Below, in pieces: positions 2,957 to 27,499 of a stretch of DNA of 64,000 nucleotides. This stretch comes from Ruminococcus sp. (GTDB lineage Bacteria; Bacillota; Clostridia; Oscillospirales; Ruminococcaceae): positions 1 through 64,000 of the forward strand of contig SVNK01000007.1 of the NCBI GenBank assembly GCA_015066935.1, in the 5' to 3' direction. The stretch's first letter is position 1. Each line of letters starts with the position of its first letter. The notes below the pieces were generated by a model. The model worked only from the letters and a program-made list of their open reading frames with translations, did not search any database and was not told the origin of the DNA. The position numbers and the translations under genes are program-made.

Positions 2957-3889
2957 CTATGCTTTGGTGTGTTTAATTTTTGCAACACCAGATTCGTGTA
3001 TTACAATTATTATAAGGAAATCATTACTTGAAATAGCGTCTTCTATCAATTTGCATTGTTTTTTACCCGTCACTTGATTATTTGAGTAATTGTAATCAGC
3101 TAATGCTCCACATATGAAATCAGCGACCCTGTTCATCTCATCATAAAACATATTATCATTGATGTTTTCAGGTATTAGTTCGGCACAGGAATTCGACTTT
3201 TCATATGAAATATATTTTGAAATCATATTGTGAGAAGTAATATGATATAAAACTTCATATATTCCATTGTGCCAGTTGGTCATAGCATCTCTGTCAGAAA
3301 GCCAGCTAAAAAGTTCAATGTTAGGTACTTCTCTGTATATAAGGAGTTTTACGTAACTCGCCAAAAAGGTGGTTAAAAAGGTTCTTCTCAGCAATTTGTA
3401 GTTAAATGATTTTTTGTGAATAGAATTTTGAAGTGAAGCGAGTTGCTTGCTCATCTCTTTGTATGTAGAAGTATTTTTTGGCGTTGTTATTTGCCAATTG
3501 TCTGTAATATCTTTATAATCTGAAATTATTTTTTCGAGAGATGCTTTATGTGTATAGTTTTCAAAAATATTATTTTTTTCAAGTTTAAAGCTTATGCTAA
3601 AGAATAGTCCTGATTTGATAAAATTGCAAAATTCGTTTGTAACAGTTCTGCATTTTTTTAAATCCGTCTTTTGCATTGAATTTATAATGTCTTTTAGTTC
3701 AGGTATATTTATAATATGCGGAAATATTACAAAGGTGATAATGTCGTTGGGCTTGTTTGAATCATCAATACAATAATCGCTACAGACATACCATTTGGAT
3801 ACATCAGCATATTTGTTGAAAAAATCTTTGAGTTGTGTGATAGAGGATTTATTTACTGTGCTTTCAAGTAGTTCAAACATTCTGTTCAA
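2957..3889 (-). CDS. Uncharacterised protein, antisense cargo gene in ICE
   Basis: ORF open to 4108 but GGAGG lies 8 nt upstream of a TTG at 3889 (ATG at 3880); AT-rich; sits between topB and the giant helicase gene; no family recognised. Confidence 0.75.
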   Translation of the reverse strand: MNRMFELLESTVNKSSITQLKDFFNKYADVSKWYVCSDYCIDDSNKPNDIITFVIFPHIINIPELKDIINSMQKTDLKKCRTVTNEFCNFIKSGLFFSISFKLEKNNIFENYTHKASLEKIISDYKDITDNWQITTPKNTSTYKEMSKQLASLQNSIHKKSFNYKLLRRTFLTTFLASYVKLLIYREVPNIELFSWLSDRDAMTNWHNGIYEVLYHITSHNMISKYISYEKSNSCAELIPENINDNMFYDEMNRVADFICGALADYNYSNNQVTGKKQCKLIEDAISSNDFLIIIVIHESGVAKIKHTKA

Positions 3890-3971
3890 TGTACCTACCT
3901 CCTGTAGATTTGATTTAACTATATTATACCATATTCTCTGAAAAAACACAATCCGAAAGGAGCGATATTTA

Positions 3972-6900
3972 TTGTCAAGACTACAAACCGTCCGTGAAAA
4001 CTGGACGGACATAACAACAAAACTGCTTCGGGATAAACAGGAGCTTGCACATTTTCTGCGTTTTTCAGCAAAGATGTATAAGCAGAGTTTTTCCGACGCA
4101 GTTCTCATATATCAGCAGAATCCCAATTCCACAAAGGTTGCAACTCTTGAAACTTGGAACAAGCTGGGCAGGCTTGTAAACAAGGGCGAACACAGTATTG
4201 CCGTGTTTGGCGAGGATAGCAAATGCAAGCACCTTTTCGATATTTCACAGACAAACGGCAAGCGTGTTCCTGAGCTTTGGAAGTTGACGGAGGATTTATC
4301 CGCAGACCTTACCGCTGTTATCAATGAAAAGTACGGTAAGGATTGCAAGAACATTCAGGAAACTATTGCGGCTGTTGCTGTGGACAATATCAAAAGCCGT
4401 CTGCCTGATATGCAGTATGCGGTAGGGCAGATGAAGCTGTCAGAAAAGGATATTACGGCATATCAGCAGTCGGTTGTTTCAGCGGTACGATTTGTAATCG
4501 CAAACCGCTGTGAGCTTGACAGCGATATGAAAATATCGGGCGGTATTAACCTTAATGCCGCAGATATGTTTAAAGACAGCCGTGACCTTATCCGCTTTTG
4601 CAATATCGTAAATCAATCGGCAAAGGACGCTCTCTTGGAAATGGAGCGAGAAATTGTAAATATTCTTAAACAAAGGAGAGAACGAAGCAATGACATACAG
4701 ATTAAGTCCGACAGGACAGTATCTTCCCGAAATCCAGTACACACAGAACCCAAGAGAACAGGCACTTCTGAAAAAGTCGATAGGCAGATGGGGCAGAATG
4801 TGGCAGGAGTGGGTGAAAACGGAGTATCCCACAGAGGTTCAGATATTCATAATGGAGGGTCGCTGGAGCATAATTCCGAGGGAAATCGACAGAGAAGCGG
4901 AGAAACGCTTTCAGGAACTGGACGAGCAGTACCGACAGCAGAACCCCCGTCCGACAGCGTTCAGCGAGATACAGACTTGGGAGAAAACAAGAGTGCTGAC
5001 GATAGAACACAGGATAATGGAGGAAATCGTGTTCAGACTCAGAATGTAGTAGTCCAAAACCTTATCGACAGATTTCTTCACGCAGACTTCAATCGCCGCC
5101 TTGACAGTTACGAAACGGCGGGTATGGTCTTTATGGACTATGCAGATACATCATTTGACCCTGTGCAGTTCTTTGACAGATTTCATTCCGACAGATTTTC
5201 CGATACGCAGGCAGAGGAAATCAGAAACATTATCAAAGCGGCAATGCAGAGCCGTGAGTATGCTCCCGAACCTGTGACAGAGGAAGAACCCGTTATCGTA
5301 AACAACGAGGTTATGGAAACAACAGAGCTTCCGCCGCTTCTTGATGAAAACATCATAAACGGCATTATGAAGTACGACAGATTTTTCAAGGTCAAGCGTG
5401 ATGAAATCGCAGAGTTCTTCGAGGAAAATGAGGATTACGATAAACGCTGTGAGTTTATGAAATCAGTTTTCCGTATGGATGAATATACAGAGCTTGATGT
5501 AAATGATGTCCGTGCAGGATACAAGGCGGAAGCTGACGGTCTTACCGTTTGGGAAGGCAGCTATCTTTCCCGTACAAAGGAGTCAAAGTTAAGCTGGGAT
5601 TTGGTACAGAGCTTTACCGCTGACCTTATCGACAAAGGTAAATACCTTGATGAAAAGCCGAAACTGGCTGTTGAAGCTGTTAAGCCGAGTAGCGACTTGC
5701 ATATCCGCAGTTTTTCAGAACGGGACGGACAGATATTTGCAGAGGTTACGCAGGGTGAAAAAAGCTCCGTTGTTCCCGTAAAGCGTACCGATGAGGATAC
5801 TCCATATATCGAAATCGGCGGCAAACCTCACAAGCTGACGGATATTCAGAACTACGATTTGGAGCAATTTGAAATATTCCGTTCTCCCGTTACTCACGAT
5901 GTCAACGGATATTATGCAGATGATTTGGCAGAGGGAGATACCATTAAACTTGACGGAGAGCTGTGGACAGTAAAATCGGCAACTACATATTCCATTTCGC
6001 TTGTAAATGACAACGGTGAAAAGAATATATACAATTCCCCTGAAAGCAAGTGGCAGGAAACTATCACAAAGGAAGGCTTTGAGTTTGTTCCAGAAAAGGC
6101 ACTTGAAATTTCCGAGCCTGTTTTTGCTCAACCTGAACCCTTTTACACACAGGGCGAACAGCTCACTTTTTTCGGGGAGCCTGTTCCCATAGAGCAGACA
6201 GAAAAGAAAACAAGAGCAAAGCCTGTGAATATTGCAGTATCCCATACTGCTCCCACAACGGATATGGTAAATCACGTCCTGCGTGGAGGAAGTGCCGAGC
6301 CGAGAAGCCTTGAAAGAATTGTAGCACAGTTCCAGAAAGGCAAGAGCGTATCCGAAAACGCTGAATTTCTCCGTAAGGAATTTGGTGAGGATGGCAGGGG
6401 ATATAAATACGTTGCTCCTGATTTCAGCAGTGCCGCACTTGTAGCAAGCTGGACGGACAACACGGGCATTACTGTGGCTATCAGCAATACCGCATTTCCC
6501 GAAGGCAAAAACGCACATATTGAATGGAGCGAAGCCGCCGAGCGTATCGGTGAAATGCTTGAAAACGGCGAATACTGTTCACAGGACATTATTGACCGTG
6601 CGATTGACAACGATATGAAGGATATTGCAGGCAAGCTGTGGTATCTTCATCAGGATTGCGAGGTAGAATATTTCATTCCCGATGAAATGTTCAAGGGCGG
6701 TTTTCCCGACAGCACGGAAAGAATTAAGGCAAGCCTTACCAATTCCGCAACCTTGCAGAAATATATTGACGGACTTGAAGATTTAATTCGTCAGTACGAA
6801 CAGGATAGAAACGTTCTGCGTTTCCATTTCCACAAGCCGAAAGAGCTTCTTTCCCGTCTTAAAGATTTACAGCTTCCGAAGCGTGATTTTATTACAAAAT

Positions 6901-9900
6901 CAGATTTCAGCTATGAGCCTAAATTCTTTGTGACAGAGGACGAAAAGGACAAGCTGTTGACAGGTGGAAGCGGTGTGCAGTACGGCAAATTCCGTATCGA
7001 AAAGTTTTTCAAGGGAGAGCATACTGAAAAAGAAAAGATTGCTTTTCTTAAAAACGAATACGGCACAGGCGGACAGGGACGGTCAGGCTTCAACGAATGG
7101 CACGATGCAAAGGGTATAAGCTACAAGAAAGGTTCAATGTCAACTCCCGATTGTGAAACGTTTCTGAAATGGAACGAGGTTTCACAGCGTATCGACAGGC
7201 TTATTGCCGAGGGGCGATATGTCACACAAAAGGACATTGACGAGCGTATCAAGGACGCAAAGCGGACTTTAAAGTACAAGACTCTCGATGATGATTACAA
7301 CAGGGCGATGATTGAACAGGCTAAAAAGGTTCTTGAGGAATACGGGGTTTCTCCCGACGAAGAACCGAGGCAATCACCCCTTGAAAAAATCATTGCAAAA
7401 GCGGAAGCAGAGGGTATTCCCGTAGAGATTACAGACGAGCCTGCAAAGGAACGTGCTGTATTTATGGATAACCGTGATGAAACATATATCGAAGTTCAGC
7501 AGACTGAGGGCGGTGTGGAGTACACAATTTATGCTCCCGACCTTACTCCCGTTGACGGCGGTGAATGGGAAATGGAAGAAGCAATGGAACTGGACGAAGC
7601 TGCCGCCGCACTTTTACAGACTTCAACCTTTGCTCTTACTGAAATTTCCGATTATGACAGGTTTATCGAAATCGCAGACAGAAATACAGAACTTGATGCT
7701 CCTGCTGAGCTTGCAAAGCTGAAAAATGAGGCTTTTTCTGCACCTGTGCAGAAAGCCGAAGATCCGACGCAGAAACAACAGACGGAAATGCAGACAGTAA
7801 ACGATCCCGAAAAGATAACCGTTACAAAGAATGAGCCGAAAAGCGGTGTACCATACACATATCATTTCAATGCTGATGATGTTGTGACAGGCGGTGCAAA
7901 ATCAAAGTTCAAGGCGAATGTTGAAGCAATACAGGTGTTGCAGAAAATCGAAGCCGAGAATCGCTATGCAACGCCCGAAGAACAGTCGGTTATGGCAAAG
8001 TATGTAGGCTGGGGCGGTATTCCGCAGGCGTTTACAACAGACAGAGCCGCCGAAAGTTTAGGCGGTAATTTAGGCGAAGCCGCACCAAGCAGCTGGGAAA
8101 CCGAGCAGAAACAGCTCCGTGAGCTTCTTTCTCCCGATGAATACAAGGCGGCGAGAGCTTCAACGCTTACAAGTTTCTATACACCTCCCGAAGTTACCGA
8201 TGGTGTATATCAGGCACTTTCGCAGTTCGGTTTTGAGGGCGGCAATGTTCTTGAACCGAGTATGGGCGTAGGTAATTTCTTCTCAAAAATGCCTGAAAAT
8301 ATGCGTGACAATTCCCGTCTTTACGGTGTGGAGTTGGACAGCATTTCGGGTAGAATCGCACAGCAGCTCTATCCCAAGGAGCGTATCCAGATTAAAGGCT
8401 TTGAGCAGACCTCTTTCAATAACAACAGCTTTGATGTTGTTGTAGGTAATATTCCTTTCGGAGATTACCGTGTCAGCGATAAAGCCTATGATAAGCATAA
8501 TTTTAAGATACACGATTACTTTGCCGCAAAGTCTGTGGACAAGGTGAAGCCGGGTGGAGTAGTTGCACTTGTTACAAGCAAGTTCACTATGGACAAGCTG
8601 AACGAAAAGGCAAGACGATACCTTGCTGAACGCTGTGACTTGCTGGGAGCTGTCAGACTTCCGAACACTGCTTTTAAGCAGAACGCAGGAACAGAGGTCA
8701 CTACGGATATTCTCTTTTTGAAGAAAAGAGAAACAATGACCGTTGAGGTTCCCGATTGGGTTCATATGAGCGAAACGGCTGACGGTATTCCTTGTAATAA
8801 GTATTTCGTGGATAATCCAGATATGGTGCTTGGCACTATGGCTTGGGATGAGCGAATGAAAGGCAAGTACGGCGATGATAGCAGAGTGACAACCTGTGTT
8901 GCCGATGAGAGTATTCCGCTTTCGGAACAGCTCAAAGCGGCTATTGCAAAAATCGAAGGAAGCATTGAAACTGTCAGAGCCGAAGAAAAACAGCGTGATG
9001 AAGCTGACATTATTCCTGCCGACCCGTCGGTACGAAATTTCACACATACCGTTGTTGACGGAAAACTGTATTTCCGTGAAAACGAAGTTATGACGCAGGT
9101 AGCCGAAACGGGTAAGACCCTTGACAGAATGATGGGTATGCACAAAATACGTCAGGCGGCTATGGCAGTAATCGACGCACAGGCGGCAGGCTGTTCCGAT
9201 GAGGAACTGAAAGAGCTTCAGACAGAGCTTAATGCCGTATATGACAAATTCAGAAAGGCTTACGGAAATATAACGGACAGCGTGAATGAACGCTGTTTCA
9301 GACAGGACGATGATTTCAATACCCTTGCGGCACTTGAAATCGTGGATACAGAGAAAAAGACGGTAGAGAAAGCTGAGATTTTCTCAAAGCGTACCATTCA
9401 GCCCGAAGTTACTGTAACAAAGGTTGATACTCCGCAGGAAGCGTTGCAGGTATCCCTTGACCGCACGGGCAGAGTGGATATTGCATATATGTCACAGCTT
9501 GTAGGCTGTGAGCCTGAAAAGTTGATTGCCGATTTAGGCAATGATATTTTCAGAAATCCCGCCGCAATAAAGGATGATGAACCGCTGTCGGGATATGAGG
9601 AGGCTTCCGAATATCTTTCGGGCAATGTCAGAGAAAAGCTGAAAATTGCAAGAGAATATGCAAAGCATATCGACAGCGGTTTTGAAAAGAATGTTGCGGC
9701 TCTTGAAAAGGTTATCCCGAAAAACCTTGAAGCAAGTGAAATTTCCGTCCGTATCGGTGCGAACTGGATTGATGTTGAGGATTACAACAGATTTCTGAAA
9801 GAGTACGCAAAGGCTGATACAAGTATGTTCGGACATCCCGTAACCCGTACCAAAATGGGCGAATACAAGATTGAGGGTAAGTATCAAGACCACTCTATTG

Positions 9901-12821
9901 CCGCAAATCAGACCTACGGCACAAGCCGTATGAGCAGTTATCATATCTTTGAAAATCTGCTCAATCAGCGTGATGTGGTTATCCGTGACAGAAAAGAGGT
10001 TGACGGAAAGGTATATTATGAGGTCAATGCAAAGGAAACCCAGCTTGCAAAGGAAAAGGCAAGACAGATGAAGGAAGCCTTTAAAAGCTGGGTATGGGAA
10101 GATATTGACCGCCGTGAAAAATATGTTGAGAGATACAACGAGCTTTTCAACGCAATTCGTGGCAGGGAGTATGACGGTTCGCACCAGACCTTTCCTGGTA
10201 TGAACCCTGCTATAAAATTGCGACCACATCAGGAAAACGCTGTACTGCGTGGAAAGCTGGGCGGCAATACGCTTCTTGCTCACTGTGTAGGTGCAGGAAA
10301 GAGCTTCGAGATGATTGCAACAACAATGGAAAAGAAAAGGCTGGGACTTATCAACAAAGGCTGTGTTGTAGTTCCGAAGCACCTTACCTTGCAGATGGCA
10401 AGCGAGTGGATGAGATTGTATCCAAACGCAAAGCTGCTGGTTGCCCGTCCCGAAGATTTTACAAAGGACAACCGACAGAAATTTATCGCCCGTTGTGTAA
10501 CAGGCGATTATGACGCAGTAATTATGTCTTTCACACAGTTTGAAAGAATACCGATGTCAGACCAGTACCGCAAGCAGTTTATGGAGCGTGAGCTTAACGA
10601 AATTATGGACGCTCTTGAGGAAGTCGATGATACCGACAGAGTTTCCGTAAAGGCTCTTGAACGTCAGAAAAGGCAGATTGAGGAACGCTTGGAAAAGCTG
10701 TTGTCCTCCAAAAAGGATAACTCCCTTTGCTTTGAAAAGCTGGGGTTTGACTATCTTGTCTGCGACGAGGCTCACAACTACAAGAACTGTTTTGTAACAA
10801 CAAAAATGTCAAATGTGGCAGGTGTGCAGACAACAGCCGCACAGAAGTCAGAGGATATGCTCATGAAAACGCAGTACCTCAATGACAAGTACGGCTGTAA
10901 CAATATCCTCTTTGCAACGGGAACTCCTGTCAGCAATTCAATGGTAGAGTTTTACGTTATGCAGAGATACCTCCGTCCCGACCTGCTTAAAAATGCAGGA
11001 CTCCAGACCTTTGACGATTGGGCGAGTACATTCGGCGAGGTGGTATCACAGCTTGAAATCAAGCCTGCGGGCAACGGCTTTCAGATGAAGAACCGTTTCA
11101 GCAAGTTTGTGAATATCCCTGAGCTTATGCAGATGTATAAGGAATTTGCGGATATTCAGACGCCCGATATGATTAAGCTCCCTGTGCCGAAGCTGAAAAC
11201 AGGAGAGCCGATTGTTGTTACTGCAAAACCCGATGACAGACAAAAGGCATATATGAAAGAGCTTGCGGCACGTTCCGAAGCTATCCACAACGGCAATATT
11301 GACCCGTCCGTTGATAATATGCTGAAAATAACGCACGAAGCAAGGCTTTTGGGACTTGATTCACGCTGTATTTTCAAGGAAGCAGAGCCTACTCCCGACA
11401 GCAAGGTTATGAAGCTGCTTGATAACCTTGAACAGAACTACCGTGACACTATGGAGCAGAAAGGCGTACAGATTGTATTCTGCGACATTGCAATCAACGA
11501 GGATTCGGAGCATTTCTCGGTATATGAAGCAATCAAGGCTGACCTTGTGAAGCGTGGTATTCCGAAAGAGGAAATCTGCTTTGCTGGTGACGCACAGACA
11601 GATAAGGCGAGAGCCGAAATGTTTGAACAGCTCAGAAAGGGCGAAAAGCGTTTTATCATCGCCTCGACCTCAAAGCTGGGAACAGGTGCTAACGTTCAGG
11701 ACAAAATTTGTGCTATTCACCATTTGGATATTCCGTGGAAGCCTGCCGACCTTACACAGCAGGATGGACGAGGTATAAGACAGGGAAACAGCTTTGATGA
11801 GGTAGGTATTTATCACTATCTGACAGAGGAAACCTTTGACGCATATATGATGGGCATTATAACTAACAAGGCAAAGTTCATCAATCAGATTATGACATCA
11901 AAAGACCCTGTGCGTGTTTCCGAGGACGTAGACGAAATGGTGCTTACATATTCGCAAATGCAGGCAATCGCTTCGGGAAACCCTATGATTAAGGAGAAAA
12001 TTCAGCTTGACAATGATGTTGCAAATCTGAAAAATCTTGAAGCGGAGCATAAGAAAATGGTGTTTTCAATGCAGGAGCTTGCGGAACGTAAGCTGCCGCA
12101 GACCATTGACAATTATGCGGATTTACTTCAGAAGGCAAGCGGAGATTTAAAGGCATTCCAAGAACAGCACCCCGACAATGCAGAATTTAAAATGGAAATC
12201 GGCGGAAAGATTTTTGATGAAAGAGCCGATGTGGGCGAGCAGATTGAAAAAGCAATCATTAAATGTTCAACTACTGGAGAGAGCGTAAAGCTGGGTAAGT
12301 ATTTCGGCTTTGATGTTTCCATTGAGAAAAATCCCGCAAACGGCAATTTCTTCAACAGCGGTACTCCCTGTGTTGCGGTATTGCAGGGCAATCTGAAATA
12401 CACCTCCGAGGTTTCACTCGGAAACAATGTGGGTAATGTCCGCCGTATCGAAAACCTTGCAGGTATTCAGATAAATCAGAAAATTCAGCAGCTTTCCGCT
12501 AATCTTGATAAGGCAAAAAGTGACCTTGAAGAAGCAAAGGCGAATGTTGCAAAGCCTTTCGGACGTGCAGAGGAACTTGCAGAAAAATTAAAGCGGCTTG
12601 AATATGTAAATGCACAGCTCAGTACAGACAAAAATGACGATGAGCCTATGCCTGTATCGGATGTTCCGACAGAGAATGAGCCTGTGCAAGCCGCAAGTGT
12701 TGTGGTTGCTATGCCTGTGTCTGCATGCACGGCAGACAAGATAAATCCTAAACCGCAGACTCCGCCTGATTTACAGCAGCCGAAGGTTGATAGTGGTTTT
12801 ATAAAGCGAAAGGCAAGGTAA
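3972..12821 (+). CDS. Giant ICE polyprotein: N-terminal LPD/ArdC-like region, N6-adenine methylase-like domain, SNF2-type DEAH helicase
   Basis: 2949 aa; TTG start with AAAGGAG RBS; VVVGNIPFG (methylase motif IV-like), AHCVGAGKSFEM (Walker A), LVCDEAHNYKN (DEAH), DLTQQDGRGIRQGN (helicase motif VI). Confidence 0.93.
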   Translation: MSRLQTVRENWTDITTKLLRDKQELAHFLRFSAKMYKQSFSDAVLIYQQNPNSTKVATLETWNKLGRLVNKGEHSIAVFGEDSKCKHLFDISQTNGKRVPELWKLTEDLSADLTAVINEKYGKDCKNIQETIAAVAVDNIKSRLPDMQYAVGQMKLSEKDITAYQQSVVSAVRFVIANRCELDSDMKISGGINLNAADMFKDSRDLIRFCNIVNQSAKDALLEMEREIVNILKQRRERSNDIQIKSDRTVSSRNPVHTEPKRTGTSEKVDRQMGQNVAGVGENGVSHRGSDIHNGGSLEHNSEGNRQRSGETLSGTGRAVPTAEPPSDSVQRDTDLGENKSADDRTQDNGGNRVQTQNVVVQNLIDRFLHADFNRRLDSYETAGMVFMDYADTSFDPVQFFDRFHSDRFSDTQAEEIRNIIKAAMQSREYAPEPVTEEEPVIVNNEVMETTELPPLLDENIINGIMKYDRFFKVKRDEIAEFFEENEDYDKRCEFMKSVFRMDEYTELDVNDVRAGYKAEADGLTVWEGSYLSRTKESKLSWDLVQSFTADLIDKGKYLDEKPKLAVEAVKPSSDLHIRSFSERDGQIFAEVTQGEKSSVVPVKRTDEDTPYIEIGGKPHKLTDIQNYDLEQFEIFRSPVTHDVNGYYADDLAEGDTIKLDGELWTVKSATTYSISLVNDNGEKNIYNSPESKWQETITKEGFEFVPEKALEISEPVFAQPEPFYTQGEQLTFFGEPVPIEQTEKKTRAKPVNIAVSHTAPTTDMVNHVLRGGSAEPRSLERIVAQFQKGKSVSENAEFLRKEFGEDGRGYKYVAPDFSSAALVASWTDNTGITVAISNTAFPEGKNAHIEWSEAAERIGEMLENGEYCSQDIIDRAIDNDMKDIAGKLWYLHQDCEVEYFIPDEMFKGGFPDSTERIKASLTNSATLQKYIDGLEDLIRQYEQDRNVLRFHFHKPKELLSRLKDLQLPKRDFITKSDFSYEPKFFVTEDEKDKLLTGGSGVQYGKFRIEKFFKGEHTEKEKIAFLKNEYGTGGQGRSGFNEWHDAKGISYKKGSMSTPDCETFLKWNEVSQRIDRLIAEGRYVTQKDIDERIKDAKRTLKYKTLDDDYNRAMIEQAKKVLEEYGVSPDEEPRQSPLEKIIAKAEAEGIPVEITDEPAKERAVFMDNRDETYIEVQQTEGGVEYTIYAPDLTPVDGGEWEMEEAMELDEAAAALLQTSTFALTEISDYDRFIEIADRNTELDAPAELAKLKNEAFSAPVQKAEDPTQKQQTEMQTVNDPEKITVTKNEPKSGVPYTYHFNADDVVTGGAKSKFKANVEAIQVLQKIEAENRYATPEEQSVMAKYVGWGGIPQAFTTDRAAESLGGNLGEAAPSSWETEQKQLRELLSPDEYKAARASTLTSFYTPPEVTDGVYQALSQFGFEGGNVLEPSMGVGNFFSKMPENMRDNSRLYGVELDSISGRIAQQLYPKERIQIKGFEQTSFNNNSFDVVVGNIPFGDYRVSDKAYDKHNFKIHDYFAAKSVDKVKPGGVVALVTSKFTMDKLNEKARRYLAERCDLLGAVRLPNTAFKQNAGTEVTTDILFLKKRETMTVEVPDWVHMSETADGIPCNKYFVDNPDMVLGTMAWDERMKGKYGDDSRVTTCVADESIPLSEQLKAAIAKIEGSIETVRAEEKQRDEADIIPADPSVRNFTHTVVDGKLYFRENEVMTQVAETGKTLDRMMGMHKIRQAAMAVIDAQAAGCSDEELKELQTELNAVYDKFRKAYGNITDSVNERCFRQDDDFNTLAALEIVDTEKKTVEKAEIFSKRTIQPEVTVTKVDTPQEALQVSLDRTGRVDIAYMSQLVGCEPEKLIADLGNDIFRNPAAIKDDEPLSGYEEASEYLSGNVREKLKIAREYAKHIDSGFEKNVAALEKVIPKNLEASEISVRIGANWIDVEDYNRFLKEYAKADTSMFGHPVTRTKMGEYKIEGKYQDHSIAANQTYGTSRMSSYHIFENLLNQRDVVIRDRKEVDGKVYYEVNAKETQLAKEKARQMKEAFKSWVWEDIDRREKYVERYNELFNAIRGREYDGSHQTFPGMNPAIKLRPHQENAVLRGKLGGNTLLAHCVGAGKSFEMIATTMEKKRLGLINKGCVVVPKHLTLQMASEWMRLYPNAKLLVARPEDFTKDNRQKFIARCVTGDYDAVIMSFTQFERIPMSDQYRKQFMERELNEIMDALEEVDDTDRVSVKALERQKRQIEERLEKLLSSKKDNSLCFEKLGFDYLVCDEAHNYKNCFVTTKMSNVAGVQTTAAQKSEDMLMKTQYLNDKYGCNNILFATGTPVSNSMVEFYVMQRYLRPDLLKNAGLQTFDDWASTFGEVVSQLEIKPAGNGFQMKNRFSKFVNIPELMQMYKEFADIQTPDMIKLPVPKLKTGEPIVVTAKPDDRQKAYMKELAARSEAIHNGNIDPSVDNMLKITHEARLLGLDSRCIFKEAEPTPDSKVMKLLDNLEQNYRDTMEQKGVQIVFCDIAINEDSEHFSVYEAIKADLVKRGIPKEEICFAGDAQTDKARAEMFEQLRKGEKRFIIASTSKLGTGANVQDKICAIHHLDIPWKPADLTQQDGRGIRQGNSFDEVGIYHYLTEETFDAYMMGIITNKAKFINQIMTSKDPVRVSEDVDEMVLTYSQMQAIASGNPMIKEKIQLDNDVANLKNLEAEHKKMVFSMQELAERKLPQTIDNYADLLQKASGDLKAFQEQHPDNAEFKMEIGGKIFDERADVGEQIEKAIIKCSTTGESVKLGKYFGFDVSIEKNPANGNFFNSGTPCVAVLQGNLKYTSEVSLGNNVGNVRRIENLAGIQINQKIQQLSANLDKAKSDLEEAKANVAKPFGRAEELAEKLKRLEYVNAQLSTDKNDDEPMPVSDVPTENEPVQAASVVVAMPVSACTADKINPKPQTPPDLQQPKVDSGFIKRKAR
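4690..5049 (+). CDS. TnpV-like small protein encoded in an alternative frame inside the helicase gene
   Basis: ATG at 4690 with AAAGGAGAG about 10 nt upstream; 119 aa with KKSIGRWGRMWQEWVKTEYP...FIMEGRWSIIPREIDREAEKRFQELDEQY...MEEIVFRL, matching the recalled TnpV (transposon-encoded protein) pattern. Confidence 0.6.
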   Translation: MTYRLSPTGQYLPEIQYTQNPREQALLKKSIGRWGRMWQEWVKTEYPTEVQIFIMEGRWSIIPREIDREAEKRFQELDEQYRQQNPRPTAFSEIQTWEKTRVLTIEHRIMEEIVFRLRM

Positions 12822-12847: not shown

Positions 12848-13159
12848 TTAAATCTTTTTCGTGATATTCTGACCGCCGTATAGAAAACGAGCGATATTTA
12901 CTGTTTCCTCGGTTTCGTTAATGGTGTAAAAGAGAAGATAATTTGAAATAACGGCGTAGCGATAACCTCTTTCAGCGAGCTTTTCATCGTGGTAGAGGGG
13001 ATAAAGAAAAGGATTGTCCTTTATGTAGGAAACAACCTCCTCCGCATTGGCGAGAAGCCTGTTTGCAGCAGTGGGGTTGTAAAGCCTATTTGAGATGTAG
13101 CTTAAAGTATCATCCAAGTCATCTGCAAAGCTTTGTGAGATTACAAGTTTATACGCCAT
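12848..13159 (-). CDS. RelE/ParE-family toxin
   Basis: 103 aa; MAYKLVISQSFADDLDDTLSYISNRLYNPTAANRLLANAEE...YAVISNYLLFYTINE..VNIARFLYGGQN is typical of ParE/RelE. Confidence 0.85.
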   Translation of the reverse strand: MAYKLVISQSFADDLDDTLSYISNRLYNPTAANRLLANAEEVVSYIKDNPFLYPLYHDEKLAERGYRYAVISNYLLFYTINETEETVNIARFLYGGQNITKKI

Positions 13160-13448
13160 ACTTCTCTCTCAATCTGCCGAATACTTCGTCAGCGGTATAT
13201 GTTTTACCTGCTTGGAACTCGGCTTCAGCTTCATCGAGCTTCTTGTAAAGTTCTTCCTTGCTTCTGACAATTACACGCTCGGGAGCAGGGAGCTTTACTT
13301 CAAAAGGCAGACCGCCTGTGAGATTGACCTGACAGAGAAACATATTTACAGCTTCGGAAATGGAAATTCCGAGCATACCGAGAGTTTCTTCGGCGTTTTC
13401 CTTAACGGTTTCATTTACACGTATATGCAGAGTTTCGGTTTTAGCCAT
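13149..13448 (-). CDS. RelB/DinJ-family antitoxin
   Basis: MAKTETLHIRVNETVKENAEETLGMLGISISEAVNMFLCQV (RHH, RelB/DinJ); ATG at 13448; overlaps toxin start. Confidence 0.87.
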   Translation of the reverse strand: MAKTETLHIRVNETVKENAEETLGMLGISISEAVNMFLCQVNLTGGLPFEVKLPAPERVIVRSKEELYKKLDEAEAEFQAGKTYTADEVFGRLREKYGV

Positions 13449-13482
13449 AAAAGCACCATTCCTTTCGTTATTTCTATGATTA

Positions 13483-13512
13483 CATTGTATCACGTTTTTT
13501 ATACAAAGTCAA
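13483..13512 (-). promoter_or_regulatory. Sigma-A promoter of the TA operon
   Basis: Minus strand TTGACT-17 nt-TACAAT upstream of the antitoxin. Confidence 0.65.
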
Positions 13513-13551: not shown

Positions 13552-16500
13552 ATGGCATGCACAAGAAAAGAATACACCCCTGAAGAAAGAGTCGCCTATA
13601 ACGCACAGAAGCAGGCGGAAATGGACGAAATGATAGAGCGTATCGACGAAGGAGTAAAGGCGGTGTTTCAGTCCGAAAAGTACAAAGAATATCTGAAATT
13701 CGCTTCAAAGTTCACCGACTATTCCGCAAGAAATACGCTCCTTATAAACTTACAGCGTCCCGACGCTACTCTTGTAGCGGCATACGGGAAGTGGAAACAG
13801 CTTGGCAGACAAGTTGAACGAGGTCAGACAGGCATTGAAATTCTTGCACCTGTTGCTTACAAGACAAATCAGGTGCTTGAAACGGAACGTCCCGCCGTTG
13901 ACGAGTTCGGCAATCAGTTATATACCCCCGACGGAACAGAGAAAATGGAAACGGTTGAAAAGCCGATGACAGGACTTGCGTTCAAGAAAGTATATGTTTT
14001 CGATGTTTCGCAGACAAGTGGCAAGGAGCTTCCCGACCCTGTTACTGAACTGACAGGGGATATAGACAGTGCAAGAAAAGAAGCTGTTTTTGCGGCTCTC
14101 AAAAAGGTTACTGGCATTGACATTGAGTTTAAGGACATCAAAGGCGGTGCAAAGGGATATTACAGCGCCACTAACAATGAAATTGTAATCAAAAGCGGTA
14201 TGAGCGACGCACAGACCTTGAAAACTGCCTTTCACGAAGCTGCACATAATCTCTTGCACGACCCTGCAAAGGATATTGTAACGAACAAATCTCCCCGAAA
14301 TGAAAAAGAGGTTCAGGCTGAATCCGTTGCCTTTATGGTAGCGGAAAGGTTTGGCATTGATACCTCGGAATATTCTTTCCCGTACATAGCTTCTTGGAGT
14401 GACGGAAAACAGCTTGAACAGCTTAAAAGTGCGTTACAGGAAATACAGGAAGCGGCGAAGAAGATTTCTTCCGAAATCGAATCGGAACTGCTGAAATTGC
14501 AGAAACGCAATCTCACAATGGACGAAAAGCTGGCTGATACAGAGCTGAACAATATTCAGAAAGCGGAGTTTCTTATTGAAGATTGTGCCGACAGAGGTGT
14601 GAATTTCTCAAAGGAGGATACCGACAAAATTCTTGATTTTGCGGGTAATCACGAAAATATATCCGAAACGGTACAGTTCGTAACGGATATGGAGGAAATT
14701 CAAAGACAGCGTGACAGCTACGGCTATGATTTTACATATATGACGCCGATTGACACAAAGGAAGCTGCTCTTGAAGCCTATGACAGAGGTGAAGCGGTAT
14801 ATCTTCTTTATCCCGATAATACGGAGGGAATGGCAGAGTCACGCTCCGAAATTGAAAATTTTGAGGGATATTTCGGTATCGAAAAAGAGCCGAGTCCCGA
14901 TGTTGTTCGTGAGCAGAACAGTGAGCTGATACCTGTTTCAAAGGAAATCGCCCTTGAAATGTGGGATAAGGATTTGGATGTATATGTTGACGGTGTTCGT
15001 GCTGAAAGCCGAGAAGATATTGAAAACGCTCCCGAAACTGCAAAGCTGTATCTTTCGGAATTTCAGTACACAGCACAGCTTGAATTTGAAAAATCCCAGC
15101 GTGGCAATGTTGACAGAACAGCCGAACCCGTAAGCAAAAATCCGAATGTTATCGGAAACACACCATACAAGGAACTTGGTGAAAAGGGTCAGCTTGAATA
15201 TTTCAAAGACCTTAAAACCCGTCACGCTCTGAATATTGCAAAACAGCTTGATGAGGACGGTATAAAATTCAGCGGACTTAAAAAGGGGAATGTTACTACA
15301 ATAACCATAAACAAGGCTGATAAGGAAAAGTACGAAGCAGCTGTTGCAAAGGTCAAAGCAAGCTATTCCAAGAGTAAGGAGCAGGCTGCCGAACCGAAGG
15401 AGCAGAAGGTTAATGATAAAAAGCCAAAGGCTGAGCCTGTCAGCAAAAATCCAAACGTCATCGGTAATACCCCGTATGATGAGTTGGGTGAAAAGGGTCA
15501 GCTTGAATATATTACAAAACTCAAAACCCGTCACGCTTTGAACATTGCAAAACAGCTTGACGAGGATGGTGTAAAATTCAGCGGTCTTAAAAAAGGCACT
15601 GTTACCACAATAACCATTAACAAGGCTGATAAGGCGAAATATGAGGCGGCTGTTGCAAAGGTCAAGGAAAGCTATTCAAAGAGCAAGGAACAGACCACCG
15701 AGCCGCTTGCAGACAAAGCTCCTGTTCCAAAGCCTGCACCCCAAAAGCCTGTGAACATAGCGGCTGATATTGACAAGGCAATTTCAGATAGCAATTATGA
15801 GTTGTACCGATATAACTTGAAACAGGCGGCTGCAACGGTTATTGAGGAACACGGTGCGGAAAAGGTAAGCAGAACCCTTGCGGAATATATTTCTCGTCAC
15901 GATTATGACGGACGGATTTCTGAAAAGAACAAGGAATGGGCAAAGAGCTTCGATATTCCCGAAAACAGGTATCCTCCCGTATTCCATACGCACCCTGCTG
16001 TGCTGGATGGCTTCATCACAGAAGCACAGACGCAGATAAAAGCACTTGAAAAGTCCGTCAGTCAGCCTGAGTTGCCTGACGTTTGCAAAGATAAATTCCT
16101 GTTGCCTGTTGAACGTGTAGAGCTTCGTGACGATCATCGTGGTATTCCTGAAACGAAATACTACGATTCGTCAGTGAACGAATACTTTGTTGACGGTATA
16201 GGCTGGCTTGACAATGCCGCCTATGACCGTGAGCAGAAATTTTCAGAATTAAGTCCAAAGGACTTTTATGCAAAGGTTACTCAGATAAATTGCTCCTATG
16301 TGGATACAGAGGGAAGAACGGGGCAGATTGACGTTTCAAAAAAGGACTATGACATTTTGACCGAAAAGACCTATTCAAAGGAAAACAGCGAAGCATACAA
16401 GGCAGCAAAGGACAAGCTGGAGCAGAGAAAACAGGAAGCAGGGATAAAGCCGAAGCCTGTTGAGTATTACGCTGTCCGTCAGACCAGTGACCGTAAATTT

Positions 16501-17433
16501 GCGGTAGCGACAATAAGTGCGGACGGACTTGTAACAGTTGCAAAGTCGGGTATTGCTACTATTGAGGAAGCTAAAAAGGCTCTGCTTGATATTTATAAAA
16601 GCAAGCAGAGTACAGTTAAGTGTGAATTTGTTCATCCGCAGACCCTTGATGAGAAATCAGCAGAGATTTACAGAAGTCAGACAAAGGAGCTTCCTGCCGT
16701 AACCTACCGTATTACCCCTAACCCCGACAAGAAATCACCTGATACACATATTTTGCAGGAGTATGTTAAAAACAGCGATGATACCTATGCGATAGGAAAG
16801 GTTATGGCAAAGGGGGATTATGAGAAATGCAACAGCAGGCTTGCAAATCTCATCAATCCTCCGAAGATTGAAGCACCCGTCAAGACCTTTGAAATTTATC
16901 AGATAAGACGAGTTGACGAAACCCGTGACGTAAGGTTTGAACCTTATGAAAGGCTCTTAAAGGCAGGCTTGAAGCCCGATTTCAAGACTTATGACAAGAT
17001 GTATGAAGCTGACGTTTCAATGTTAAGCGGCAAAAGCACAGACGAAAAGCTGGAGTCAGCGTTCTATGTTTTCAATCAGGAACGTCCCGAAGATTTCAAG
17101 GGACACTCGTTAAGCGTTTCCGATGTGGTAGTGCTTGACGATACAGCGTATTACGTTGACAGCGTGGGATTTAAGCCACTGAAAGACTTTATACCGCTTG
17201 AAATTCAGCAGAGCTGTTTTCTTGATACGCTCCCTCAGACCTTGCAGGGTATATCAGATAATGCGGCGGAGCTTGAAGCTGTTTCGGATAAGGCTCTGAA
17301 GCTGAATATACCGCCCGAAATTATCCGAGAAGCCTGTGATATGGTAAATGGCGGTGAAAGCCTTGATAATATGGCAAATGCTTACGAAGAAAAATTTACA
17401 GAGAAAAACGCTCCTGCGGAAAAAGCTCCCTAA
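13552..17433 (+). CDS. ArdC/LtrC-like antirestriction and large polyvalent protein
   Basis: 1293 aa; ArdC-type N-terminus (KFTDYSARNTLLINLQRPDATLVAAYGKWKQLGRQVERGQTG) and zincin HExxH (FHEAAHNLLHD); internal 103-aa duplication. Confidence 0.85.
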   Translation: MACTRKEYTPEERVAYNAQKQAEMDEMIERIDEGVKAVFQSEKYKEYLKFASKFTDYSARNTLLINLQRPDATLVAAYGKWKQLGRQVERGQTGIEILAPVAYKTNQVLETERPAVDEFGNQLYTPDGTEKMETVEKPMTGLAFKKVYVFDVSQTSGKELPDPVTELTGDIDSARKEAVFAALKKVTGIDIEFKDIKGGAKGYYSATNNEIVIKSGMSDAQTLKTAFHEAAHNLLHDPAKDIVTNKSPRNEKEVQAESVAFMVAERFGIDTSEYSFPYIASWSDGKQLEQLKSALQEIQEAAKKISSEIESELLKLQKRNLTMDEKLADTELNNIQKAEFLIEDCADRGVNFSKEDTDKILDFAGNHENISETVQFVTDMEEIQRQRDSYGYDFTYMTPIDTKEAALEAYDRGEAVYLLYPDNTEGMAESRSEIENFEGYFGIEKEPSPDVVREQNSELIPVSKEIALEMWDKDLDVYVDGVRAESREDIENAPETAKLYLSEFQYTAQLEFEKSQRGNVDRTAEPVSKNPNVIGNTPYKELGEKGQLEYFKDLKTRHALNIAKQLDEDGIKFSGLKKGNVTTITINKADKEKYEAAVAKVKASYSKSKEQAAEPKEQKVNDKKPKAEPVSKNPNVIGNTPYDELGEKGQLEYITKLKTRHALNIAKQLDEDGVKFSGLKKGTVTTITINKADKAKYEAAVAKVKESYSKSKEQTTEPLADKAPVPKPAPQKPVNIAADIDKAISDSNYELYRYNLKQAAATVIEEHGAEKVSRTLAEYISRHDYDGRISEKNKEWAKSFDIPENRYPPVFHTHPAVLDGFITEAQTQIKALEKSVSQPELPDVCKDKFLLPVERVELRDDHRGIPETKYYDSSVNEYFVDGIGWLDNAAYDREQKFSELSPKDFYAKVTQINCSYVDTEGRTGQIDVSKKDYDILTEKTYSKENSEAYKAAKDKLEQRKQEAGIKPKPVEYYAVRQTSDRKFAVATISADGLVTVAKSGIATIEEAKKALLDIYKSKQSTVKCEFVHPQTLDEKSAEIYRSQTKELPAVTYRITPNPDKKSPDTHILQEYVKNSDDTYAIGKVMAKGDYEKCNSRLANLINPPKIEAPVKTFEIYQIRRVDETRDVRFEPYERLLKAGLKPDFKTYDKMYEADVSMLSGKSTDEKLESAFYVFNQERPEDFKGHSLSVSDVVVLDDTAYYVDSVGFKPLKDFIPLEIQQSCFLDTLPQTLQGISDNAAELEAVSDKALKLNIPPEIIREACDMVNGGESLDNMANAYEEKFTEKNAPAEKAP
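15121..15738 (+). repeat. Two tandem 309-bp (103-aa) units inside the ArdC-like gene
   Basis: AEPVSKNPNVIGNTPY(K/D)ELGEKGQLEY..LKTRHALNIAKQLDEDG(I/V)KFSGLKKG.VTTITINKAD starts at 15121 and again at 15430. Confidence 0.9.
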
Positions 17434-17757: not shown

Positions 17758-17855
17758 TATAATTTTGTTGAAATATGAGGGATTATGTGGTATAATAATA
17801 TAATAAAATTACGAAATATATAACATTACGCTATTATATATATGAGGTGATAGTT

Positions 17856-19856
17856 GTGCATTTATCTAAATTGAGAATTGAAAATATGCGGTTATTTAAA
17901 AAACCTGTTACTATTAATCTGCACAAAGGGTTAAATCTTCTTGTCGGAGAAAATGGTTGTGGAAAGAGTACAGTTATTGATGCTATTCGCATGCTTTTAA
18001 ATGAGTCAGAATTTTCTCATAAAGGGATAACTGCAGAAGATTTTAATTCTTCGGGATGTGCTGAAAATACATCGCCTTGCCGACTTTTCATTATTGGTGT
18101 TTTTTCAGAGTTAACAGATGAACAGAAAGTGGAATATTTAACGTGGCTTAATCATAATTTTGATGCTAGACTTAATGTTGAATATTTACATAGCACTAAT
18201 GTTAGAGGAAATTATAAACAGAAAAGATGGGGCGGTTGTTCAAGTAATAGCGCATTTGATTGGGAACCTTTAAATGATATTCAGTGCGTATATTTACCTG
18301 CATTGCGTGATGCTGAGAGATACTTGAGAGCCGGTCGTGGTTCTAGACTTTCTAGATTATTAACTAATTTATCAGCGGATGAGTTAAAAGAAAAGCGTAA
18401 AAACAAAGAAAAAATGGAATTAGAAACAGAAGTTGCTGCTTTTAATCACACAATAGAACAGAAAACAGATATAGAGCGTGCCAATAAATTGATTAATGAT
18501 AGTTTAAAAGAGTCAGCGGGTTCTGTTTTTGCTCAAAGTACCAGCATAAGGTTCAATGAGCTGTCATATGAACGCATTGTAGAGTCGCTTCAGCTATTGT
18601 TTTCAAATGAACTTGATGTAAAAGAAGATACTGCTTTTTTCAGTCTTTGCGAAAATAGTTTAGGATACAATAATTTGATATACATAGCTACTATTTTAGC
18701 TGAATTTGAGGGGTTGAAGGAAAAATATTCATCGCCTAGAATATTACTTGTTGAAGAATTAGAGGCACATTTACACCCACAGTTGCAGATAAAATTGCTT
18801 AAATATTTAAGTAAGCAGGCAGTGGAACACGATATACAAGTTATAATTACAACCCATTCTGCAATTTTGGCAGCGGCAACACCTATAAATCAAATTATAT
18901 GCTTTAATCGTTGTAAAGATGGAATATCAATAACTCCAATTTCAAAATGCAAATTAGAGAATGACAGCGAGAATTTTATAAATAGATGGCTTGATGCAAC
19001 TAAATCAATGCTGCTTTTTTCAAAAGGTAATATTTTTGTTGAGGGAATTGCTGAAGCAATACTTGTACCAAAACTTGCAGAAATCTATTTAAAAAGCAAA
19101 GGGTCATTAGGAGTGACTTCATTAGAAGATGCGGGCATTTCTGTAATAAATTTGAATGGAATTTATTTTCAACATTTTATAAAAATGTATAGTGGATATA
19201 GAATAACCATTCCTGAACAAGAAGAAAGAGAAACCAAGACAGCGTATAAGGAACGTGTGGCTGAATTTAAGAAAAAGAATTCATTTGCCGAAGGTGAATT
19301 TATAAAGGTAAAAAATATTAATGTAAAGTGTGCGGTAATAACTGATAATGACCCTGTTGATAATCAAGAAATATTTATCAATTCTGAGAATGGGGAAGAA
19401 GTAGTAAAAAAGGAACCAGCTACACCTACTAAAGATAACTGTTTACCTAGTGGAAATCCGCAAATTTATCTAAAGGAGCAACTTGAAAATATGACTGATA
19501 ATTGCCGCGTATATTCAAATTTAAAAACGTTTGAATATGATTTAGCAATTGAGAGTCACAGCAATGCAAGAATAATGCTTGAAATAATTCTTGATTCAAT
19601 AACGACCAATGGGGATATTGCTGATAAAGCGCAGAAATATATTGATGAGATTGACAAAGAAGAGCGTGAAGATGAATTTTCAATAAATGACGCTGAAATG
19701 GCATTGTTTATCTTAAAGCAAATTGATAGCTCTTATCTAGGTAAAGGTCTGTTTGCGCAATTATTATGTGATAAAATAGATGATAGTTTTATTGTGCCTG
19801 ATTATATATGTAAAGCTATTGATTTTGTCTTGGGGTTGGAGGAAAATAATGGCTAG
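17856..19856 (+). CDS. OLD-family ATPase-TOPRIM endonuclease (GajA-like)
   Basis: GTG start with GAGGTG RBS; Walker A GENGCGKST, LVEELEAHLHPQLQ Walker B region, TTHSAILA; TOPRIM FVEGIAEAILVPKLAE and CAVITDNDPV. Confidence 0.88.
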   Translation: MHLSKLRIENMRLFKKPVTINLHKGLNLLVGENGCGKSTVIDAIRMLLNESEFSHKGITAEDFNSSGCAENTSPCRLFIIGVFSELTDEQKVEYLTWLNHNFDARLNVEYLHSTNVRGNYKQKRWGGCSSNSAFDWEPLNDIQCVYLPALRDAERYLRAGRGSRLSRLLTNLSADELKEKRKNKEKMELETEVAAFNHTIEQKTDIERANKLINDSLKESAGSVFAQSTSIRFNELSYERIVESLQLLFSNELDVKEDTAFFSLCENSLGYNNLIYIATILAEFEGLKEKYSSPRILLVEELEAHLHPQLQIKLLKYLSKQAVEHDIQVIITTHSAILAAATPINQIICFNRCKDGISITPISKCKLENDSENFINRWLDATKSMLLFSKGNIFVEGIAEAILVPKLAEIYLKSKGSLGVTSLEDAGISVINLNGIYFQHFIKMYSGYRITIPEQEERETKTAYKERVAEFKKKNSFAEGEFIKVKNINVKCAVITDNDPVDNQEIFINSENGEEVVKKEPATPTKDNCLPSGNPQIYLKEQLENMTDNCRVYSNLKTFEYDLAIESHSNARIMLEIILDSITTNGDIADKAQKYIDEIDKEEREDEFSINDAEMALFILKQIDSSYLGKGLFAQLLCDKIDDSFIVPDYICKAIDFVLGLEENNG

Positions 19857-21801
19857 AAGAAAAGCTTTGTTAGAGCAAATTTGTGGTTTTTGTGATGTTC
19901 CTCAAACAACGGGGATATGTAATGGGGTGCTTGCCAACAAAAGCAAAGAAACAAATAAATGTATATTTGATTGTCTTTCAGAAGAACAAATTGATTATAT
20001 TTACTCGGATATTAAGTCTAATGTGTATTTAAACGCCTGTCCCGGAAGTGGCAAAACAGAGGTAATAGGTTTAAAGGGTGCAATCGAAATAAAAAAATGG
20101 GATGAACCTAATTCTGGGATTGCTATATTAACTTTTACTAATTCAGCAGAAGATGAAATTAGAAGCCGGACTGTAGAGTATCTTGGGCACCAAATAGATT
20201 ATCCCCATTTTATAGGTACATTTACAAGTTGGTTGCATGGATATGTTGCCAATCCATTTTTAAGTTTGGTTACAGGATATAAAAATAAAGAAACATTCGA
20301 TAACAGCATTAAATTAATTGACTCAAAATGTACAAGTGATTTTCTCTTTTCTTTTGAAACAAAATATAAATATCACTCTCTAGGTAATATCAAAGCAAAT
20401 GAAATCTATTTTGATTTGAAAAGCCAAAAATATATGTATTGCGGTTTTGAGTCTAATGGACAAAGTGTTTTGGATGGGCTACTATCTCAGGATAAATGGA
20501 GAGAGGAAGAATTAAGTGCATTAAAATCAAAATTTTGGAAAGCAGGATTTGCACTATATGAAGATGTGGAATATCTTTCTCTAAATCTATTAATTAAAGA
20601 AGAGAATATAGCAACATATATTGCCAAAAGGTTTCCTGTGATATTTATAGATGAGTGTCAAGATTTGTCATTTGTTGAATTGCAAATTCTAAAATGTCTT
20701 AACTCTCATGGTTGCAATATTCATATTATCGGAGATTTAGACCAATCTATTTATGGATTTAGGAATATTGATCCTTCTGACACAAATGCTTTTGTAAGTG
20801 AGTTATCAATGGATGAAATGCGTTTATCCCAAAATCATAGAAGTTGTAGTCCAATTGTTGAATCATCAATGTTTGTATTGAATAAAAAAGAAAAGATTAT
20901 TTCAACGCAATCCCCAAAATTAGATAGACCGTTAATCGCAATTCTTTATAAAAAAGGCGAAGAATCACAAGTCGTTTCAAAATTTGAGTATTTAGTTGAT
21001 GTATATGGATTGAATAAAAATAACAGTCGCATAATAGTTCGCAATAATAATTTAAGGAATAAAATGTATGGCTCAAAAGATGTAATCAAGTCCATTAATA
21101 CCATTGAAGAATTTGCAAAAGCCTTATATTGGCATTATAATGGGTGTTCAGTTGAAGATTTTCAGCGTAGCACTCAAAGTTTAGCGAGAGCAATTCAAAG
21201 ATCCTTTTTCTCTGAATCGGAACATCAAAATATTACATATTTATATAAACCGGTCGAGATGGAAAGTTCAGAATGGCGTAGATGTATAAATGATATAAAA
21301 AATGCACTTGTATCTAGTACGGAACTTAATAATTTTGACCTTACTTGGGAAAATTGGAAGAAAGCTTTACAAAAAGCTTTGATGTCCGATTGTGCAAGTA
21401 AATGGAATCGAGGTACATTGAAACTAGGAAAACTCAGAAATAATTGTGCAAAGCAAAAAGTGCAAATTGATATCGGCTCTGGAAGACAAGCTGAATTTAA
21501 TTGTGCCATTGAAACTATTCATAGCTGTAAGGGAATGAGTTTAGATGCTGTATTATTTATGTCGACATATCATAAAAGTAGTAGCGGCGAAAACTCACAG
21601 AATAATGGTTCGCATTGGCATAGCTGGTTTGTAGATGATAGTGGAATTGCAAGGGAAAGCAATAGATTAGCGTATGTAGCATTTTCTCGTGCAAAGCATT
21701 TACTTGTTCTTGGAATTCCTAACCCTCAGACATCACCGATTGATGAAGAACATAAACAGTTACTTATTGATGCTGGTTTTGAAATTGTTTCAGTAAGTTA
21801 G
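19849..21801 (+). CDS. UvrD/Rep-like superfamily 1 helicase (GajB-like)
   Basis: Overlaps the OLD gene by 8 nt; LNACPGSGKTEVI (Walker A), ILTFTNSAEDEIRSR, VIFIDECQDLS, GDLDQSIYGFRNIDP, AYVAFSRAKHLLVL. Confidence 0.88.
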   Translation: MARRKALLEQICGFCDVPQTTGICNGVLANKSKETNKCIFDCLSEEQIDYIYSDIKSNVYLNACPGSGKTEVIGLKGAIEIKKWDEPNSGIAILTFTNSAEDEIRSRTVEYLGHQIDYPHFIGTFTSWLHGYVANPFLSLVTGYKNKETFDNSIKLIDSKCTSDFLFSFETKYKYHSLGNIKANEIYFDLKSQKYMYCGFESNGQSVLDGLLSQDKWREEELSALKSKFWKAGFALYEDVEYLSLNLLIKEENIATYIAKRFPVIFIDECQDLSFVELQILKCLNSHGCNIHIIGDLDQSIYGFRNIDPSDTNAFVSELSMDEMRLSQNHRSCSPIVESSMFVLNKKEKIISTQSPKLDRPLIAILYKKGEESQVVSKFEYLVDVYGLNKNNSRIIVRNNNLRNKMYGSKDVIKSINTIEEFAKALYWHYNGCSVEDFQRSTQSLARAIQRSFFSESEHQNITYLYKPVEMESSEWRRCINDIKNALVSSTELNNFDLTWENWKKALQKALMSDCASKWNRGTLKLGKLRNNCAKQKVQIDIGSGRQAEFNCAIETIHSCKGMSLDAVLFMSTYHKSSSGENSQNNGSHWHSWFVDDSGIARESNRLAYVAFSRAKHLLVLGIPNPQTSPIDEEHKQLLIDAGFEIVSVS

Positions 21802-26307: not shown

Positions 26308-27499
26308 ATGAAGGCAGTAATTTATGCTCGATACTCTTGTGATAACCAACGTGAAGAGAGTATCGAAGGTCAGCTCCGTGAATGTAAGGCATTTGCGGAA
26401 CGCAAAGGTTTTAAATTGGTTGGTACATACATAGACAGAGTGATGTCCGCTAAAACAGACAACCGCCCTGAGTTCCAGAGAATGATTAAGGAAAGTGCGA
26501 ATGAGCTTTTCGATGTAGTCATTGTTTGGAAGCTGGACAGATTTGCAAGAAACAGATATGACTCGGCACATTATAAGGCTACGCTTCGTAAGAATGGAGT
26601 TAAGGTAATATCCGCAACTGAGGTTATCTCGGAGGGTGCGAAGCGGTAAGGGAAAACCTATAACCAAGACAAGTGCCACATCAATGCTCAGTAATGTAAA
26701 ATACAAGGGTCAGTATAAATACCGTGACATAATTATTGACGGCGGTGTTCCGAGAATTGTTTCTGACGCTCTATTTAATAAGGTACAGGAACGATTGAAG
26801 AAAAACAAATACTCTCGTTCAAGATTTAAGGCAAAGATTGAGTATTTTCTTTCAACCAAGCTCATTTGCGGATACTGCGGTGAGTTTATGATAGGAGAGA
26901 GTGGCACAATCAGACAGAAGATTAAGTACAACTATTATAAATGTACCGGTGTAAAAAGGCACAAAGGTTGTCACAAAAAAACTGTACGCAAGGCAGATAT
27001 TGAAGAAATCGTACTAACTGATGTTATGGACAAGATGTTCAAGGAAGATTTGATAAACGATATTGCAGACAGTGTAATGAGATTGCAGGAGAAAGAAAAC
27101 ACCACTATACCTCTTATGCAGAAGCAGTTGGCTGAAATTCATCAGAGTATAAATAATTTAGTCAAGGCAATGGAGATGGGTATTGTTTCAAGAGAAACCA
27201 AGCAGCGTTTTGAAGAGCTGGAAGCTCAGAGGACAGAACTTGAAACAGATATAATCAAGCAGGAAATCCAAGAGGAGATAATTACAAGAGAGCAGGTAGT
27301 GGAATGGCTGAAAGAAATGAAAAGGCTCGACCTTTCATTGGATGACAACAAACGCAAACTTGTAGATACCTTTGTAAATTCAGTTTATCTTTACGATGAC
27401 AAGGTTGTCATCATCTTTAATTGTAGAGAAGGGGCGAGTACACTCGCCCTCCCTTTGGACGATACTTCGGCTTGTATGCGAATTGGGGAGCCATACTGA
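26308..27499 (+). pseudogene. Large serine recombinase (ICE integrase), internally deleted and frameshifted
   Basis: N-terminal resolvase domain (MKAVIYARYSCDNQREESIEGQ...) stops at 26649; C-terminal part in another frame (GKPITKTSATSMLSNVKYKGQYKYRDI...zinc ribbon...); central recombinase segment missing. Confidence 0.85.

Follow-up and report, generated by a model that had tools for sequence, protein, structure and literature searches.

Small genes that lie in another frame of a giant gene on the same strand are exemplified in bacteria by comS, a very short gene of narrow distribution within srfAB of Bacillus subtilis. Antisense overlapping genes have been described from E. coli O157:H7, for instance pop and ano (PMC7103648, PMC5960689). 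TnpV of Tn4451 belongs to a protein family (Pfam PF14198) whose described genes are free-standing and often stand beside a serine recombinase; open-licence PMC texts mention TnpV merely among annotations or as a gene standing on its own, and a Xis-like role has been postulated for the Tn4451 protein (PMC3158075). Proteins of the polyvalent class, which combine ArdC-N, adenine methylase and SNF2 ATPase domains, are known from a conjugative setting; the text of the paper on them, when searched, refers neither to TnpV nor to overlapping frames (PMC5512222).

The locus analysed here brings these together. In a stretch of 64,000 nucleotides from Ruminococcus sp. (contig SVNK01000007.1, positions 1 to 64,000; hereafter the window), a tnpV gene almost certainly forms, as judged from comparative sequence data, a same-strand dual-coding pair with the giant helicase gene that contains it. 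Its product is a member of the same protein family as TnpV of Tn4451 by curated HMM score, likewise from mobile elements of Bacillota, but its gene is nested in a helicase gene rather than free-standing. The host gene falls into the polyvalent class through its methylase and SNF2 domains and its conjugative setting. Like comS, tnpV is a small gene in another frame of a giant gene, although comS is very short and narrowly distributed whereas nested tnpV, with approximately 115–200 codons, occurs in Clostridia, Bacilli and Tissierellia. Like pop and ano it is a coding ORF inside a gene that is itself annotated, and annotation rules leave it out, but those are antisense, while nested tnpV is on the same strand, belongs to a curated domain family and is deeply conserved. 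We found no report of the arrangement in the open-licence PMC literature, and an earlier report elsewhere is not excluded. As a nested gene retained across much of a phylum, tnpV offers a strong natural test case for bacterial dual coding. The features of the window are given in Table 1.

Table 1. Position of the predicted nested gene, its host gene and neighbouring features in the window.
Feature	Coordinates	Strand	Remarks
383-aa ORF	2957–4108	-	between topoisomerase gene and helicase; overlaps helicase start as listed
Giant helicase gene	3972–12821	+	2949 aa, TTG start as listed; ArdC-N-like/adenine-methylase/SNF2-helicase protein of conjugative element
Putative Shine-Dalgarno AAAGGAGAG of nested tnpV	4672–4680	+	9 nt before ATG
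Inferred dual-coding stretch, helicase frame	4689–5048	+	hydrophilic low-complexity linker from ArdC-N-like domain to remaining helicase
Predicted nested tnpV gene	4690–5049	+	119 aa, ATG start, +1 frame relative to helicase
RelE/ParE-like toxin and RelB/DinJ-like antitoxin pair	12848–13493	-	identified by eye; between two giant genes
Second polyvalent protein, ArdC-N + DUF3849 + YodL	13552–17433	+	directly after helicase
Complete Gabija defence pair	17847–21801	+	GajA-like (PADLOC E=2e-220), GajB-like (E=2.4e-172)
287-aa ORF	26636–27499	+	matches only later parts of large serine recombinase

The helicase protein exceeds the Pfam cut-offs for SNF2-rel_dom, Eco57I, Helicase_C and LPD16, and its ArdcN match is weak (18.8 bits, below the cut-off of 22.6). 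The tnpV start is offset from the helicase start by 718 nucleotides (3 × 239 + 1), which places it in the +1 frame, wholly inside the helicase ORF. A preliminary description of this DNA had pointed to a 119-aa ORF so placed behind a strong ribosome-binding site, where the helicase frame is of low complexity, and had likened it to TnpV; coordinates and Shine-Dalgarno agree with this, the helicase frame across tnpV reads SDRTVSSRNPVHTEPKRTGTSEKVDRQMG... and is hydrophilic as well as of low complexity, and the family assignment is borne out by an HMM search, in which the ORF matches PF14198 with 39.9 bits (E=4.5e-10) against a gathering cut-off of 27 bits. The match spans profile positions 9–107 of 111, a near full-length domain in 119 residues. 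There is no second copy of TnpV in the genome of the window at E<=0.001, and sequence searches of NCBIfam and PDB with TnpV gave no useful match.

Other genomes, mostly of Ruminococcus-like rumen and gut bacteria, supplied 23 loci with a TnpV 63–94% identical to that of the window. The helicase-phase frame is open across the complete TnpV ORF in 20 of them; in the other three, all on draft contigs (L004, L007 and L018), the frame is broken within the overlap or close to it, which may reflect assembly errors or decay. PF14198 is matched by all 19 close relatives and by all seven canonical nested members scored, and in approximately 100 loci no stop interrupts the helicase frame anywhere in the overlap. 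As a control, we took the 30 top-scoring free-standing Pfam TnpVs (L045–L074). None adjoins a helicase N-terminus and the helicase-phase frame is interrupted in 28, the remaining two (L051, L052) having an open stretch of just 116 aa in that phase. The TnpV frame is stop-free in all intact homologues. Neither of the grounds for refutation named beforehand, the lack of a TnpV HMM match and frequent stops or frameshifts in the alternative frame, has thus materialised.

Pairwise divergence over 19 relatives locates the constraint. At helicase codon positions 1, 2 and 3 it is 0.27, 0.18 and 0.56 upstream of the overlap and 0.37, 0.28 and 0.61 downstream, and within the overlap the pattern flips to 0.44, 0.24 and 0.20. 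Divergence at four-fold sites of the helicase frame drops from 0.62 upstream to 0.07 within the overlap and returns to 0.60 downstream. This is the suppression at synonymous sites that the preliminary description had led one to expect, and 27 canonical nested loci, taken as an independent set, give corresponding values of 0.63 in the N-terminal flank against 0.14 in the overlap. The dip is restricted to the overlap along some 2100 further downstream codons scanned. In the same 19 relatives, pN/pS in the overlap is 0.33 for the TnpV frame and 1.37 for the helicase frame, a comparison that shows purifying selection on the former. Four-fold divergence of TnpV itself is 0.46, lower than the approximately 0.6 of the helicase flanks, indicating some constraint from the helicase frame too. 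When TnpV was recoded at random with synonymous codons, the helicase frame stayed open in no more than 0.0045 of trials for each of the 19 sequences, such codings introducing 4 to 10 stops on average into the helicase frame of the overlap, and that frame is actually open in 19/19. The reverse test, on whether the TnpV frame is open by chance, is weak (0.03 to 0.40); hence an open alternative frame alone is no proof of TnpV, and the proof is in homology and constraint. With both frames open in intact homologues and constraint confined to the overlap, the earlier proposal of a true overlapping gene in a conjugative element is supported.

The Shine-Dalgarno of the nested gene is conserved as well. 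Among 107 nested TnpV starts, 89 are preceded within 18 nt by a match of at least 6 nt (6–8 nt) to AAAGGAGGTG; among +1-frame ATGs further down the helicase, 2 of 432 are. Where several nested starts were possible, the one with the best Shine-Dalgarno was taken, and this somewhat favours the nested set in the comparison, but the gap is far larger than the choice of start is likely to produce. Internal initiation of TnpV is inferred from this conserved Shine-Dalgarno, in the absence of expression data.

The arrangement extends well beyond close relatives. A profile of the helicase N-terminus was searched over 297 genomes of the order; leaving aside the window itself and two incomplete loci, the best 30 comprise 27 loci, all of which hold a +1-phase TnpV fully inside the helicase ORF. 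Together with 39 of 40 further, weaker matches, this amounts to 66 of 67 other helicases in the order. The same profile applied to a phylum-wide sample of 398 genomes recovered nested TnpV in 14/14 strong matches besides the window and in one further locus (L197), and not in another, L199 (15/16), the remaining matches being mostly small ArdC-N-like proteins. Matches were ranked by profile similarity, several come from one genome and ORF length served as the criterion for a giant helicase; these fractions are therefore no unbiased census. Two giant helicase-like ORFs, L149 and L199, have no TnpV, and nesting is therefore not universal; they also lack the R/G/S-rich linker, whose unusual composition therefore accompanies the second frame.

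Nested tnpV is present in the Ruminococcus albus 7 plasmid pRUMAL02 (NC_014825.1, within WP_013483842.1), in Virgibacillus (within WP_240455872.1), in Cohnella and Monoglobus plasmids, and in plasmids of Bacilli. On pAPRE01 of Anaerococcus prevotii the nested ORF, within WP_012797162.1, scores 25.0 bits, just under the PF14198 cut-off. Streptococcus agalactiae CP138365.1 (L208:4743-5162) has a diverged ORF at the same place and phase of a homologous giant helicase ORF; it has no Pfam TnpV match, a weak match of E about 1e-3, and a resemblance by eye to the Anaerococcus ORF (L207). Standard annotation disallows long overlaps, and intact helicase loci consequently lack an entry for tnpV: for R. 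albus 7 and Virgibacillus the SNF2 protein alone is listed (the plasmid gene tables are known to be incomplete), and the Monoglobus and Cohnella records list tnpV where the table has no helicase CDS over it.

Long-type nested TnpVs of approximately 200 aa (L075:6259-6885 and L076:6522-7124, inside ORFs of 3945 and 3747 aa) are extended at the N-terminus by about 100 aa, and this extension is dual-coding too. Helicases with nested TnpV also occur in four contigs classed as viral in IMG/VR (L155, L156, L163 and L164); since these carry a conjugative-element helicase, some of them are probably not viruses but integrative elements.

We propose that one mRNA of the conjugative element would carry the giant methylase/helicase gene, that ribosomes from the helicase start would read through the tnpV region and make a disordered hydrophilic linker of it, and that other ribosomes would begin at the internal Shine-Dalgarno and ATG to produce TnpV from the +1 frame. 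TnpV, made together with the helicase, would be a compact, all-helical protein of approximately 119 aa. An AlphaFold2 model from 31 sequences (mean pLDDT 88, pTM 0.72) is helical from residue 21 to 114, with two short N-terminal strands of low confidence; Foldseek found no PDB fold for it at E<=0.001 and nothing significant among viral models, the best being an uncharacterised siphovirus protein (E=0.56). As an explanation of the locus, a dual-coding pair with internal initiation is very probably correct on comparative grounds, without transcript, ribosome-profiling or peptide evidence. It would account for the odd low-complexity linker of giant helicases, and it means that knock-outs of such helicase genes, or cargo insertions in them, may remove two products.

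Two readings would dispense with a second translated gene or with the overlap itself. An ancient insertion or fusion of tnpV might have left untranslated sequence in the linker, with only the helicase frame of consequence; the helicase frame is indeed intact in all complete relatives, and the lack of expression data for TnpV leaves room for such a by-product. A fossil, however, would not keep helicase four-fold sites so nearly invariant, nor is it easily squared with purifying selection on TnpV where the helicase frame of the same DNA shows none by pN/pS, with host-like codon usage in TnpV, or with a Shine-Dalgarno that has been kept; this pattern of constraint leaves the fossil reading strongly disfavoured, with hardly any weight. 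Alternatively, an ArdC-N-like protein might end near tnpV and a separate methylase/helicase start downstream, without true overlap. Stand-alone ArdC-N-like proteins of about 300 aa do exist and the linker is poorly conserved (amino acid identity 0.45), but a helicase frame kept open through so many loci despite the stops that random TnpV codings bring, the lowered four-fold divergence of TnpV and the interruption of the same phase in most free-standing TnpVs make two separate proteins very unlikely. Comparison shows that the stretch is dual-coding, that TnpV is under selection and that the helicase frame has been retained.

Within the dual-coding pair it remains to ask which frame came first and what TnpV does. 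The preliminary description called tnpV overprinted, which holds for the overlap; the younger age that the word implies for the TnpV frame is not settled, and codon usage and the low-complexity linker suggest the opposite. TnpV codon usage is closer to the rest of the gene than is that of the overlapping helicase frame (17/19 and 23/27 loci), and newly read frames are often of low complexity, so the linker of the helicase may be the more recent of the two readings; giant helicases without TnpV, moreover, have no linker. On these grounds TnpV could be older, the linker frame having arisen when an upstream ArdC-like and a downstream helicase gene fused across tnpV, to which we give even chances. 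Against this, nested forms are spread over the whole of a tree built from 167 TnpVs, and most free-standing ones fall into a single shallow cluster. Such a pattern is in keeping with the opposite order, but the tree has few columns, long branches and an open root, and does not decide; in a tree of helicase N-termini both TnpV-less helicases are long branches that could not be placed. Identities of TnpV and helicase N-terminus are correlated over 107 nested loci (r=0.90, 0/999 permutations as high), so that, in aligned sequences, the two co-diverge. That the family arose by overprinting in the giant ICE helicase gene, as a near-obligate nested partner across Bacillota from which the free-standing TnpVs of mobilisable elements are escaped copies, is conceivable but rather unlikely; if true, tnpV would rank among the most broadly conserved bacterial genes nested on the same strand. 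As to function, TnpV could be an excisionase-like directionality factor similar to lambda Xis: one free-standing copy adjoins a large serine recombinase (L158), and TnpV shares its element with such recombinases in Tn6104-6106 (PMC3158075). Other free-standing copies, however, adjoin Mob_Pre relaxases (L026, L067, L074) or a T4SS coupling protein (L161). The winged-helix fold of lambda Xis is not seen in the TnpV model, which is all-helical apart from its two short strands, and with no solved fold matching, homology to Xis is not favoured and the excisionase role seems improbable. An accessory role in mobilisation fits these neighbours; inferred from gene neighbourhood only and not demonstrated, it is a tentative assignment that falls somewhat short of probable.

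Additional same-strand nested genes in the helicase were considered and rejected, there being no further four-fold dip in its scannable part. Elsewhere in the window, the true start of the 383-aa minus-strand ORF is probably further inside, the 287-aa ORF is perhaps a serine recombinase remnant, and the GajA-like and GajB-like ORFs of the Gabija pair overlap by 77 nt as listed.
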